DNA of 20,469 nucleotides, from positions 1 through 20,469 of the IMG/VR virus record IMGVR_UViG_3300006790_000144; one strand, given 5' to 3'. The position numbers were made by a program, and so were the translations under genes. This stretch comes from a virus. The notes beneath the pieces were generated by a model. The model searched no databases. It was not told the DNA's origin and was given only the letters and a program-made list of their open reading frames with translations. Positions 10,794-18,038 of this stretch are shown in pieces (positions within the stretch are counted from its first letter, which is position 1; every line of letters starts with the position of its first letter).

Positions 10794-12056
10794 ATGGACA
10801 AGAAAAACCCATCTGTTAGAGTAGTTAATCTTGCTAACTACGAAAGACCCACTGTGAAGGAATGCAATCACGCAGATTGGGTTGAGTATGGCGAGTACAA
10901 TGATTACTTCGACATAATGATTGAGCGATACCTAGGTTCTCCTACTAACGCTCGTTGTATTAACGGAATCAGCGACATGATTTTCGGCCGAGGAATTGAA
11001 GCCACCGACCGAACCGTCAATGTTGACGCATACCTGCAAATGAAGCACTTAATCGACGACAGGGAGCTTCGCAAAATTGTAGGAGACAGAAAGCTTCTTG
11101 GCCAGGCTGCAATTAAGGTTGTTTACAATAAGAACAAAACCAAGGTTGCTGCTATAAAGCACTTTCCAATGGAGACCCTTAGGGCTGAGAAGACTGTTGA
11201 TGGAATTGTTAAGGCATACTATTACCATCCAAGGTGGAAAGAGATTAAATCCTCTGACCAGCCAAGACGCATCCCCACGTTTGGCAATGGCTCTAAGAAA
11301 GAGACTGTAGAGTTATATATTGTAAAGCCTTATGTATCTGGTTTTTACTACTACTCTCCATGCGACTACCAGTCGTCTCTACAGTATAGCCAACTAGAAG
11401 AAGAGGTATCAAACTACCACCTTAGCAATATCGAGCACGGCCTTCAGCCTTCGCTCTTGATTAACTTTAACAATGGCACCCCCTCAGAGGAGATTCAAGC
11501 CATGTTAGAGAATAAGATTGCAGACAAATTCTCTGGCTCTTCTAACGCAGGTAAGTTCATCTTAGCCTTTAATGAGGACAAGGACACCGCTGCAACTATC
11601 GACGCTATCCACTTGCCTGACGCTCACGCTCAGTATCAGTTCCTTGCGGACGAGAGTCGTGAAAAAATTATGTTGGGACACGGTATTGTTTCTCCTATCT
11701 TATTAGGTATTAAGGACAACACCGGTTTCGGGAATAACGCCGAGGAGCTTAGAACCGCCAGTATAATTATGGACAATATCGTTATACGCCCGTTCCAGCA
11801 AAATATCATTCAGGCTTTGGATGACATCCTTGCCTACAACAGAATATTCCTTTCTCTATACTTCAAGACTCTACAACCAATCGAGTTCGTAGAAATGGAT
11901 AACATCGCCACAAGCGTTGTTCGTGAAGAAGAGACTGGCGAAAAGTTATCTGCTGACATTAGCACAGAGGAGTTTGAGGCCATGTTAGATTCTACTAGCG
12001 TAGAGGAAAAAGATAACGCCATCAAGAAAATGTGGAACAAACTAACAAGTAAGTAA
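10794..12056 (+). CDS. Portal protein
   Basis: 420 residues. It forms the dodecameric ring at the head vertex through which DNA passes. The signature region is at ~250-330: NAGKFILAFNEDKD, then LPDAHAQYQFLADESREKIMLGHGIVSPILLGI and the GFGNNAEELRTA block, which matches the portal pattern 'N-GK-il--...D-qf-------e-I---hgv-p-llG-----nnaEe'. The N-terminal half has the usual clip/wing features (NARCINGISDMIFGRGIE; KLLGQAAIKVVYNKN). The C-terminal ~30 residues are acidic and then basic. Stop overlaps the next start (TAATG at 12054-12058), coupling it to the connector. Unusually the gene lies downstream of capsid and tail tube, not upstream. Confidence 0.85.
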   Translation: MDKKNPSVRVVNLANYERPTVKECNHADWVEYGEYNDYFDIMIERYLGSPTNARCINGISDMIFGRGIEATDRTVNVDAYLQMKHLIDDRELRKIVGDRKLLGQAAIKVVYNKNKTKVAAIKHFPMETLRAEKTVDGIVKAYYYHPRWKEIKSSDQPRRIPTFGNGSKKETVELYIVKPYVSGFYYYSPCDYQSSLQYSQLEEEVSNYHLSNIEHGLQPSLLINFNNGTPSEEIQAMLENKIADKFSGSSNAGKFILAFNEDKDTAATIDAIHLPDAHAQYQFLADESREKIMLGHGIVSPILLGIKDNTGFGNNAEELRTASIIMDNIVIRPFQQNIIQALDDILAYNRIFLSLYFKTLQPIEFVEMDNIATSVVREEETGEKLSADISTEEFEAMLDSTSVEEKDNAIKKMWNKLTSK

Positions 12057-15268: not shown

Positions 15269-15904
15269 ATGAAGCTGGAAAAACTAACTAAGCTAACTGA
15301 GGCGTTTGCTAGAGTGAGGACCACTTCGGTGTTTCTTGCTCTATGTTTCTTCTTCATGTGGTTGTTTCAGGTAGAGATAAAAAGAATCTTGGAGTTACGA
15401 TTCCTCAACGAAGACCCAATCTCCACTACAATAGATAACGACGTTCTTATTGACGGATTGCTGCTAGAGGCTATGGAGGTGGCTGGCGCAGACCGGGCTT
15501 ACATATTTAGATTCCACAACGGCGTAAGGTATTACAACGGGAGTCATAAGAATAAAATGTCATGCGACTATGAGGTGGCTAGACCAGGCACTTCGCTAGA
15601 GGCGAAGGGCCTTCAAGACATACCAGTCACCTTATTCCCTTATTTTATAAAGCAGGTCATGATTAATAGGATGGTTTACCCAGACGTCTCTAAGATACAA
15701 GATGTCAGGACTAGGTTAACTCTGGAAAGGCAGGGTGTGAAGGGAATAATATGCATGCCTTACTACAGGGATGACGTGTTGACCGCAATTATAGGTGTTG
15801 ATTATGTCCACAGTCAGTTTCCTGAATGCGATAATGTAGAGATGAATAGCCTCCTTTTTAACATGGAGGGGGTCTTTAACAATATAGGGGATTTATTATT
15901 ATGA
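15269..15904 (+). CDS. Membrane-anchored GAF-like domain protein in the lysis cassette
   Basis: 211 residues. Residues ~19-35 (TSVFLALCFFFMWLFQV) form a single hydrophobic segment after a short basic N-terminus. Residues ~65-205 look like a GAF sensor domain: 'VAGADRAYIFRFHNGVRYYNG' (71-91) for the first strands and 'ERQGVKGIICMPYYRDDVLTAIIGVDYV' (153-180), the typical GAF core hairpin. GAF domains bind small molecules in host signalling proteins. Here the gene overlaps the M15 endolysin by four bases (ATGA) and lies two genes before the holin, so it may be a lysis-timing sensor, antiholin-like factor or spanin substitute. That function is inference. Membrane anchoring and GAF likeness are read from the sequence by eye. 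Confidence 0.65.
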   Translation: MKLEKLTKLTEAFARVRTTSVFLALCFFFMWLFQVEIKRILELRFLNEDPISTTIDNDVLIDGLLLEAMEVAGADRAYIFRFHNGVRYYNGSHKNKMSCDYEVARPGTSLEAKGLQDIPVTLFPYFIKQVMINRMVYPDVSKIQDVRTRLTLERQGVKGIICMPYYRDDVLTAIIGVDYVHSQFPECDNVEMNSLLFNMEGVFNNIGDLLL

Positions 15905-16365
15905 AGGACAAAATATCTAAACACATAAGCTACGAAGAAGCCACTTACAGTACTACGGCTAAAAGACTAGGCATTGACAACACCCCTGACGACTTCCAGT
16001 TAGCCAGCATGGCGCTGGTCGCTGAGAAGGTGTTTGAGCCCCTTAGGAGGCATTTTGGCGTCCCTATAGGTGTTACGTCATTTTTTCGCTCAGAAGCTCT
16101 TAATACAGCTCTTAGAGGGTCAAAGACCAGCAGCCACATGAAAGGTGAGGCTATTGACATTGATGGAGACCTGTACGGCACAGTTAACAATGCCGATATA
16201 TTTAATTACATTGCTGACAACATGGAGTTTGACCAGCTCATCTGGGAGTTTGGTAATGACAACCAGCCAGCATGGGTGCACGTTAGTTACTCTTGCGAAG
16301 GAAACAGGATGCAGAAGCTTAAGGCTTACAAGTCTAACGGGCGAACTGCCTACAAATACATTTAA
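15901..16365 (+). CDS. M15-family peptidoglycan peptidase (endolysin)
   Basis: 154 residues. It would cleave peptide bonds in peptidoglycan (M15 carboxypeptidase/endopeptidase fold). Zinc ligands and catalytic residue are all present: His79 in SSHMKGEAID with Asp86 seven residues later (HxxxxxxD), and His127 in WVHVSY, with conserved Glu116 in LIWEF. The 'VTSFFRSEALNTALRG' block before it is the usual Arg-containing loop. No signal peptide, so export through a holin is expected, and a holin gene follows at 16367. ATGA overlap with the GAF-like gene suggests coupled translation. Late gene of the lysis cassette. Confidence 0.9.
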   Translation: MKDKISKHISYEEATYSTTAKRLGIDNTPDDFQLASMALVAEKVFEPLRRHFGVPIGVTSFFRSEALNTALRGSKTSSHMKGEAIDIDGDLYGTVNNADIFNYIADNMEFDQLIWEFGNDNQPAWVHVSYSCEGNRMQKLKAYKSNGRTAYKYI

Positions 16366-16366
16366 T

Positions 16367-16843
16367 ATGCCTAAAGAAACTTATAAGGAGAGAAACGGTA
16401 CTACTCGCGTTGGTGATGCGTTGCGCTGGTTAGCTGGAAATGGAAGAAAGATTGCTCCAGGAATATTGGACCTTGCTGGGAGCATTACTGGTATAGATGC
16501 GTTTAACAAAATGGCCTCTGCCATCGGCAAAGACCCTTCTTTATCGGGAGAGGACAAGGATTTCTTGTTACGTCAACTAGACGCAGACATGACAGAGAAC
16601 ATTGAGGTAAGCAAGAGATGGTCCAGCGACATGACAAGCGACTCTTGGCTGTCTAAAAACGTCAGACCGCTTAGTTTAATATTTCTAACTGTATTTACAA
16701 TGCTGTTAATATACTTGGACTTTTTTGATTCTGGCATCACAGTTCCTACTGAATGGATTGAGCTGTTAAAGTCTTTATTATTAGGCGTGTATGTTGCATA
16801 TTTCGGCTCTCGTGGTATTGAGAAATACAAAAGCATTAAGTAA
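16367..16843 (+). CDS. Phage holin (3TM-type family)
   Basis: 158 residues. I use ATG at 16367, one base after the M15 stop (the frame stays open further upstream, but that would overlap the endolysin extensively). The C-terminal third has two hydrophobic segments, ~101-120 (PLSLIFLTVFTMLLIYLDFF) and ~131-147 (IELLKSLLLGVYVAYFG). The motif 'DSWLSKNVRPLSLIFLT' and end 'AYFGSRGIEKYKSIK' fit the phage holin family (3TM-type/GTA holin, from memory). The N-terminal ~90 residues are cytoplasmic and helical. It would permeabilise the inner membrane for the M15 peptidase. Last gene of the lysis cassette. Confidence 0.78.
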   Translation: MPKETYKERNGTTRVGDALRWLAGNGRKIAPGILDLAGSITGIDAFNKMASAIGKDPSLSGEDKDFLLRQLDADMTENIEVSKRWSSDMTSDSWLSKNVRPLSLIFLTVFTMLLIYLDFFDSGITVPTEWIELLKSLLLGVYVAYFGSRGIEKYKSIK

Positions 16844-16867
16844 AAAATGTTAAAGTTTACAAAAAAC

Positions 16868-16898
16868 TTGCATATTAGCTAAAAATTTTGTAACTTTG
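16868..16898 (+). promoter_or_regulatory. Bacteroidetes-type promoter P1
   Basis: TTG at 16868-16870 and TAACTTTG at 16891-16898, spacing 20 bases, exactly the Bacteroidetes consensus TTG-N(17-23)-TAnnTTTG. Transcription would begin near 16903-16906, just upstream of the structured RNA. Confidence 0.8.
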
Positions 16899-16908
16899 CC
16901 TCACTGAT

Positions 16909-17000
16909 AAGTCAGTTAAGACTTAATAGCGGCCTCCAGGTGGAGGGTCTACAGAGCCCGACACCCTTATGCAGAGTAATGAGGTGTCTAGGTCGCATAT
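16909..17000 (+). ncRNA. Predicted structured RNA (multibranch) downstream of P1
   Basis: A cluster of pairings directly after P1. Hairpin AAGTC/GACTT (16909-16913 with 16920-16924). Outer stem GCGGCC/GGTCGC (16929-16934 with 16991-16996, one GU pair). Inside it lie TCC/GGA (16935-16937 with 16942-16944, alternatively CCTCC/GGAGG at 16933-16946), GGG/CCC (16945-16947 with 16957-16959) and a strong GACACC/GGTGTC stem (16960-16965 with 16983-16988) with a TTA/TAA extension. The arms are back-to-back as in a cloverleaf, but it lacks tRNA consensus bases. It could be a riboswitch-like leader or a small RNA. Pairing was done by eye without an energy model. Confidence 0.45.
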
Positions 17001-17010
17001 AGTTACTGTG

Positions 17011-17038
17011 TTGTATACGCCATAATTATATACTTTTG
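17011..17038 (+). promoter_or_regulatory. Bacteroidetes-type promoter P2
   Basis: TTG at 17011-17013 and TACTTTTG at 17031-17038 with 17-base spacing, the lower end of the allowed range. Would start transcription near 17044. Slightly weaker match than P1. Confidence 0.55.
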
Positions 17039-17093
17039 TAAAACTATGCCAAAATGTGGATAACGTAATTAGTAATGGTGGTAGTAAATTGCT

Positions 17094-17101
17094 TATATTT
17101 G
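17094..17101 (+). promoter_or_regulatory. Isolated -7 box TATATTTG (possible P3)
   Basis: Matches TAnnTTTG but has no TTG at the right distance upstream. If used, transcription would begin near 17106, exactly at the 5' side of the GATGATTG stem. Confidence 0.3.
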
Positions 17102-17105
17102 TATA

Positions 17106-17206
17106 GATGATTGGTTAAAGGCTTTGTGGTGGAGCTACAATCATCAGTCTAAAGTTTTGTTTCTTGTTTTGGTTATGGCCCCCACATTGTTGGGGGTCTT
17201 TTTTTT
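17106..17206 (+). ncRNA. Predicted ~100-base leader/small RNA ending at the terminator
   Basis: Perfect stem GATGATTG/CAATCATC (17106-17113 with 17138-17145). It competes with an alternative stem TTGTGG/CTACAA (17124-17129 with 17135-17140, one GU pair), since bases 17138-17140 are shared. A U-rich single-stranded linker and a terminator follow. This is the layout of an attenuator or sRNA. Mutually exclusive stems are seen in the sequence; regulation is inference. Confidence 0.45.
17178..17206 (+). terminator. Terminator touching the next start codon
   Basis: Stem CCCCCA/TGGGGG (17179-17184 with 17191-17196; a GU pair can extend it at 17178 and 17197), six-base loop, then eight T (17199-17206). 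The ATG of the next gene begins at 17207. Expression of that gene therefore requires read-through or an antitermination event. Confidence 0.85.
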
Positions 17207-17623
17207 ATGATGAAGACTAGAGTATTTGACTACAAGAATAGAGCTGACTACAATCGTCAGGGTTTACGGCATTTGTACTGGGAATTGTTCGACAGTCCGG
17301 ACCAACCAGGCAGCGCATTTAAGTATATGGAAAGAGAACCTATACTTGTCCTAGACGACATAATGGTAGAGCACAACCTATGGAGACCCAAGGTTGACTT
17401 GGCCTATGTGACTAAAACGCATGCAGATGTTTTAGGATTGCCTACGTCGTCTTCACATCGTGTTGGTCACGCTGTTCGACTCAGAGCAACAAACCCTAAA
17501 CAAAGGATGTTTATAGCATCCAACTTAATACGTCGGGGTATCGTCCGTATAGGCGTTGGCCGGGAGCACGTTTACTTCGATACAGACAACTATTTAAAAG
17601 AACCAGTTTTATATGTCCAATAG
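17207..17623 (+). CDS. Degenerate M15-like protein (probable pseudoenzyme)
   Basis: 138 residues. The layout follows phage M15A peptidases: 'FDSPDQPGSAFKYM' (28-41) where they have FDSPD-PGSG--M, then 'GLPTSSSHRVGHAVRL' (77-92) where they have PdSSHLKGLAADI, then 'RMFIASNLIRRGIVRIGVGREHVYFDTD' (100-127) where they have R-I-n-Ll--GftRIGIGktFIHvDvD. His84 is kept, but the Asp ligand seven residues on is Arg91 and the third ligand position is Tyr123. The usual 'SGYRT--HN' loop reads LAYVTKTHADVL. Zinc catalysis is therefore unlikely. It may serve as a binding or regulatory protein. Start is ATG 17207 or 17210, directly after the terminator; the frame closes upstream at 17150. Confidence 0.6.
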   Translation: MMKTRVFDYKNRADYNRQGLRHLYWELFDSPDQPGSAFKYMEREPILVLDDIMVEHNLWRPKVDLAYVTKTHADVLGLPTSSSHRVGHAVRLRATNPKQRMFIASNLIRRGIVRIGVGREHVYFDTDNYLKEPVLYVQ

Positions 17624-18038
17624 AAAGACAATCAATTACACAAAGACCACTGTAGATGGCATTAAGTTCGCTTCTAAGCTGGAGGCTTATATGTATACAC
17701 TACTTGCTGAGAATGGCTTTGAGCCAGGATACGAGACCGAGACGTTTATTCTGATTGAGGACTTTGCTTATGAATATGATTCATACGAGTACTACAGGAC
17801 TAGAGAGATGAAGAACAGCAAAGGTAAGAGGGTACAAGGCGTAACCTACACACCTGACTTTGTTGGTGATGACTATATTATAGAGGTTAAGGGTAGGGCT
17901 AATGAGGTGTTCCCTCTTAAATGGAAGATGTTTAAAAAGCATATAGCTGAAAACAGACCTGGCACAACCCTATACATGCCTAAGAACGATAAGGATTGCC
18001 AGCAAGTTATAGAATTACTAAAAAAAAGTAGTGAATAA
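17613..18038 (+). CDS. PD-(D/E)XK nuclease (DUF1064-like)
   Basis: 141 residues. Overlaps the previous gene by 11 bases. The nuclease core is clear: DGIKFASKLEAYMYTLL with Glu24, 'VTYTPDFVG' with Asp82, and 'YIIEVKGRANEVFPLKWKMFKKHI' with Glu91-x-Lys93, the PD...ExK signature. The spacing and the post-motif 'f-lK-k-f' fit the phage DUF1064-type endonucleases. Likely cuts branched or damaged DNA, or supports recombination or packaging. Neighbouring recombination and SSB-like genes support a DNA-processing role. No signal peptide. Family name is from memory. Confidence 0.75.
   Translation: MSNRKTINYTKTTVDGIKFASKLEAYMYTLLAENGFEPGYETETFILIEDFAYEYDSYEYYRTREMKNSKGKRVQGVTYTPDFVGDDYIIEVKGRANEVFPLKWKMFKKHIAENRPGTTLYMPKNDKDCQQVIELLKKSSE

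Follow-up and report, generated by a model that had tools for sequence, protein, structure and literature searches.

The window, by which we mean the whole stretch of DNA that was analysed, comprises 20,469 bases and represents a whole IMG/VR virus record. Its capsid protein is 34.5% identical to the counterpart in the Nonlabens phages P12024S/L, and its AAA protein matches Flavobacterium phages. The named relatives are phages of Flavobacteriia, and the window appears to stem from a virus of Flavobacteria-type bacteria. The largest intergenic gap of the window separates the lysis module, consisting of M15 endolysin and holin, from the early and recombination genes (Table 1). On neither strand of this gap (16844-17206) is there an ORF of at least 50 aa, in agreement with the original prediction, which had described an RNA without ORF at this site. 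The first gene behind the gap, gene 17207, encodes a protein with a predicted M15/Hedgehog-like fold (structure model with pLDDT 83), whose closest PDB match is the Zn DD-peptidase 1lbu (E 2.3e-3). The motif SSHxKGLAVDI is kept in the relatives L094/L095, whereas the window and the L252 class carry HRVGxxVR instead; for this reason the product of gene 17207 may have a peptidase fold but no catalytic residues. The overlapping gene 17613 matches Pfam DUF1064 (1.6e-9) as well as the PHROG Holliday junction resolvase (7.5e-14) and is probably co-transcribed with gene 17207.

Table 1. Coordinates of the features in and around the gap between lysis module and early genes.
Feature	Position	Strand	Description
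M15 endolysin	15901-16365		lysis module
Holin	16367-16843		lysis module, directly before the gap
Largest intergenic gap	16844-17206		between lysis module and early/recombination genes
Promoter P1	16868-16898	+	-33 TTG, 20-nt spacer, -7 TAACTTTG
5' hairpin	16909-16924	+	AAGTC/GACTT, precedes cloverleaf; pair probabilities 0.94-0.96 in transcript 16902-17000
Cloverleaf	16929-16996	+	outer stem around three arms (16935-16944, 16945-16959, 16960-16988)
Outer stem	16929-16934/16991-16996		GCGGCC/GGTCGC, one G-U pair
First arm	16935-16937/16942-16944		TCC/GGA
Second arm	16945-16948/16956-16959		GGGT/GCCC
Third arm	16960-16965/16983-16988		GACACC/GGTGTC, lengthened by an inner stem
Putative antiterminator strand	16930-16950	+	5' half of cloverleaf, complementary to terminator hairpin
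3' hairpin	16997-17031	+	ATATAGTTA/TAATTATAT, adjoins 3' end of cloverleaf; in MFE of longer transcripts
Possible second promoter P2	17094-17101	+	-7 element TATATTTG; sequence reading only
Intrinsic terminator	17177-17206	+	8-bp stem (6 G-C), 6-nt loop, then eight T
Gene 17207	17207-17623	+	138-aa protein, M15-like fold; ORF and structure model
DUF1064/resolvase-like gene	17613-18038	+	overlaps gene 17207
Other early/recombination genes	starts 18101, 19019, 19419		19419: AAA ATPase

The host-type promoter that had been proposed upstream of the RNA is borne out by the comparison with the Bacteroidota promoter consensus TTTG/TANNTTTG (PMC6847099). P1 fits this consensus, and by the numbering used there transcription is predicted to start at 16903. 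Exact matches to TTG-N20-TANNTTTG occur four times in the window, compared to 0.32 expected. They are located at 16868, 18040, 18863, and 18943, confined to the plus strand and to the right quarter of the window, and three of the four precede recombination/replication genes. P2 has no TTG at -33 and is absent from these exact matches.

Behind P1, the original prediction had placed a compact cloverleaf-like RNA at 16909-17000, with a GC-rich outer stem enclosing three back-to-back helices. Folding recovers this architecture: the outer stem is present, and the three helices, including the GACACC/GGTGTC arm, are found with most pairs above 0.9 (probabilities of 0.91-0.99 in the nascent transcript 16902-17000). 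Lower values in the same transcript, 0.37-0.65, belong to the inner pairs within the GACACC arm and to the weakest pairs in the small arms. The GC content is 60% in the cloverleaf (16929-16996) versus 28% in the remaining gap. For 16909-17000 an MFE of -31.9 kcal/mol was calculated (z -2.67), whereby 4 of 200 shuffles were equally low, so that the fold, which holds up as a prediction, surpasses shuffled sequence only moderately. Among the 92-nt stretches on both strands of the whole window, a z this low occurs in 3.9% and an MFE this low in 0.4%; since 3.9% of the stretches reach the same z, the energy of the cloverleaf is by itself unexceptional. ARAGORN reported 0 tRNA genes, as had been anticipated. 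Rfam yielded no match in the window at the gathering threshold, and the near-misses (best score 23.2 bits, threshold 50) are attributable to chance.

Farther along the same gap there is an intrinsic terminator, which the original prediction had missed. Its hairpin (17177-17198) is followed by a T-run (17199-17206) and then directly by the start codon of gene 17207. As the eight T touch the start codon, no promoter fits between the terminator and this gene. Since the gap is closed by the terminator, the cloverleaf becomes the 5' part of a transcription unit of ~304 nt. Thus, the coordinates given for the cloverleaf were right, but the RNA is likely longer than 16909-17000 and would extend over about 16903-17205.

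The cloverleaf and the terminator are related to each other by a direct repeat, GTGGAGGGTCT / GTTGGGGGTCT, which connects the putative antiterminator strand 16930-16950 with the 3' arm of the terminator. The computation shows that pairing between cloverleaf and terminator excludes both structures. For the full unit, two isoenergetic folds were obtained, one with cloverleaf plus terminator (-82.1 kcal/mol) and one with the 5' half of the cloverleaf paired with the terminator (-82.8 kcal/mol). The terminator has a probability of 0.98-0.99 without the 5' half of the cloverleaf and of 0.53 with it. In growing transcripts, the probability of the cloverleaf falls from 0.90 (end at 17176) to 0.23 (end at 17186), which coincides with the emergence of the 5' arm of the terminator, and it recovers partially once the terminator is complete; in the full-length transcript, cloverleaf and terminator each stand at ~0.5. 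At 10-20 C, i.e., at lower, marine temperatures, the folding model leans to the terminator (0.72-0.78). The statistics of this competition were framed and computed after it had been noticed: the duplex of the cloverleaf 5' half with the terminator has an energy of -31.8 kcal/mol, which is matched in 0.9% of the dinucleotide-shuffled controls and by 0.04% of the window's other 32-mers, and the combination of high 5'-arm occupancy at 17190 with low final terminator probability is found in 1.0% of cloverleaf shuffles and 0.3% of leader shuffles. Taken singly, an equally low terminator probability occurs in 7-8.5% of cloverleaf shuffles and an equally high occupancy in 18%.

Kin of the virus were sought via six proteins (endolysin, ERF-like protein, DUF1064 protein, MCP, 17207 protein, and holin), which led to several hundred loci. 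The phages recovered with a capsid protein of more than 80% identity, L175-L182, have contigs that stop short of this gap. With the model R1, built from the window RNA alone, no convincing homologue came up, either in ~260 of the loci or in 87 whole viral records. At E 10 there was no match in 173 loci, nor in 73 further loci; among whole records, none was obtained in 37 at E 10 and none in 50 at E 1, and with filters off the matches were at chance level only. Likewise, blastn with the gap and with the whole window against annotated phages returned nothing relevant, and no closer kin was found in bacterial genomes. With no homologue detected, the support that the original prediction had hoped to draw from compensatory changes in related phages is missing.

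In the surveyed relatives, the gap after the holin is A+T-rich and has other content. The order of holin, gap, and 17207-protein homologue is kept in L252, L233, L261, and L264-L268, where the gap contains a minus-strand promoter, TTGCATAT-N10-TTTTGTAACTT, of the same class as P1. In most of these relatives, an RNA that forms an outer stem plus two hairpins comes after the promoter, and a terminator-like hairpin stands farther on. The best R1 match in the gap of L266 lies at the site of this minus-strand RNA (10 bits, E 0.03 for 461 bp), whereby the outer stem and one arm are compensated and the loop CUACAGA is shared with the window; the match in L267 is similar and weaker, and L261 has none. 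A second model, R2, built from the minus-strand RNA of the relatives, recovers L233, L252, L268, L269, and L284, several of which are among its members, at E 1.1e-18 or better. In this reciprocal search it misses the window RNA. Homology between the two RNAs is therefore a one-way suggestion that failed the reciprocal search and is not claimed here. No covariation is seen in alignment A4, whose members are too alike. As judged by sequence, the 17207 homologue of the relatives seems to be served by a promoter of its own that immediately precedes the start codon, with no terminator between, and thus only the window has the arrangement of leader and terminator within this set. For L235, the relative nearest by capsid, inspection by eye had suggested a terminator ahead of the next gene; the scan did not call it, and it was discarded.

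Two further candidate units came up in the relatives. Between the holin and the 17207 homologue of L266, the minus strand of 2520-2876 carries a promoter and behind it an RNA rich in hairpins, together with CAGCCTTCGGCTGGTGTTTTAG and a conserved motif of the TTGTATTAAGGGATAA type; the same applies to L233, L252, L261, L264, L267, and L269. This minus-strand RNA is a candidate for a separate family of phage ncRNAs. In L215, a plus-strand promoter-like site, ~110 nt, and the terminator GGAGGGTCTAAAAACTCTCCTTTTTT follow the holin (11406-11557), which makes this region a candidate for another sRNA unit at the junction of lysis and early genes.

The window locus is most economically explained as a transcription attenuator that acts on gene 17207, an account which we put forward tentatively, as the switch is computed from predicted folds. 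Host RNA polymerase would start at P1 and produce a leader of ~304 nt with the cloverleaf as its 5' domain, and this leader would control gene 17207 and its overlapping gene by attenuation. In the OFF state, the folded cloverleaf would allow the downstream hairpin to form, and transcription would end in the T-run 17199-17206. In the ON state, the free 5' half of the cloverleaf would pair with the terminator hairpin, and the polymerase would read into 17207. The balance might be shifted by a ligand, by a phage or host protein, or by the speed of the polymerase. We infer the existence of the transcript, a working switch, and the role of gene 17207 as its target. The attenuator is suggested by a promoter of the right class, the T8 terminator at the start codon, the two folds of equal energy, a duplex that is rare among shuffles, and the loss of the cloverleaf as the 5' arm of the terminator emerges. 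Against it stand the single measures, which are weaker than the combined one, the ease with which GC-rich hairpins pair within an A+T-rich gap, a pairing that spans ~230 nt, the preference of the model for the terminator at 10-20 C, and the fact that no homologue was found, hence no covariation. The riboswitch-like or regulatory role that had been proposed for the RNA gains plausibility since a terminator able to pair with the cloverleaf sits before the next gene; it does not gain from the relatives, whose counterpart lies on the other strand and failed the reciprocal search. A more specific proposal is unlikely, namely a phage-borne attenuator at the late/early boundary in a flavobacterial phage, in which a four-way junction would be an undescribed sensor domain and its 5' half would at the same time serve as antiterminator. 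As there is a single sequence without covariation, the claim stops at an orphan candidate.

The main rival to the attenuator is a stand-alone phage sRNA of ~304 nt that would start at P1, always be terminated, and act in trans on targets in the host or the phage, whereby the terminator would insulate the early genes from late transcription. We regard this as rather doubtful. Promoter, structured 5' end, terminator, and missing ORF are the anatomy of an sRNA gene, too, and the gap of the syntenic relatives has a promoter and a hairpin RNA on the opposite strand, ending in a terminator-like hairpin; being encoded on the other strand, that RNA cannot serve the 17207 homologue as a leader. The plus-strand unit of L215, with promoter, ~110-nt RNA, and terminator after the holin, points in the same direction. 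However, nothing points to trans targets, there is no sequence homologue, and gene 17207, for which no promoter of its own would fit behind the terminator, would need some read-through or another arrangement. It is improbable that the element lacks any RNA function and is either a GC-rich remnant that folds by chance or a stretch of DNA with a different role, for example as a replication origin. An equal z in 3.9% of genome windows, the lack of conservation, and one perfect DnaA box (TTATCCACA, 17055-17063) would fit, but the fold is better than 98% of its own shuffles, and the GC island in which it lies comes immediately after a promoter. The DnaA box is on the minus strand and is the sole exact one in the window, within the same gap. 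An origin was rejected, since origin repeats and a GC-skew turn are absent.

Two further readings have slim prospects. The window ncRNA might be an inverted homologue of the minus-strand RNA in L252, L233, and L264-L268 that was flipped between lineages, which we consider very improbable. The relatives carry the identical promoter, and the top match of the window-only model in the L266 gap, together with the weaker one in L267, falls on that RNA, but the model of the relatives misses the window RNA and L261 is unmatched. Moreover, the shared promoter is weak evidence of homology, as it precedes unrelated sequence in L270 and L280. The slimmest chance of all is given to a put-like RNA antiterminator, in which the promoter-proximal RNA would bind RNA polymerase, as put RNA does at the zinc-binding domain of the beta' subunit, and let it pass later terminators. 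The position, just 3' of an early promoter and before an intrinsic terminator, and the similar size recall HK022 putL (PMC9378689); against this, the RNA forms a four-way junction instead of two long stem-loops, a single terminator is nearby, and no homologue was found.

Little is known about the timing of phage gene expression in Bacteroidota. Should the attenuator function, a Bacteroidota phage would possess an RNA switch that is compact and directly testable in vitro; as it stands, with one sequence and no relatives, the window RNA is a lead and not a discovery. Leaders and sRNAs of such anatomy are of a known kind, whereas the window RNA is outside known families and no homologue was detected. 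The lambda OOP RNA and the lambda 6S late leader are phage small RNAs that end at an intrinsic terminator. Like these, the window unit would be a short terminated transcript at a phage operon boundary, but it is longer, has a branched 5' domain, and has no known target. The four-armed outline resembles a tRNA, from which the RNA differs by its 6-bp outer stem, its arms of 3 and 4 bp, and the negative ARAGORN result. The HK022 put RNA is a phage RNA antiterminator of ~70 nt with two long stem-loops near an early promoter (PMC9378689). The window RNA is likewise structured, close to an early phage promoter, and upstream of a terminator; unlike put, it is a four-way junction that is itself able to pair with the terminator. 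Compared to bacterial attenuators and terminating riboswitch leaders, it lacks a known sensor domain (Rfam negative), resides in a phage, and has a switch that is only computed. It shares with them the succession of promoter, structured domain, terminator-competing pairing, and start codon, whereby the terminator lies between the leader domain and the gene, and an alternative pairing that excludes the terminator is predicted with moderate controls.
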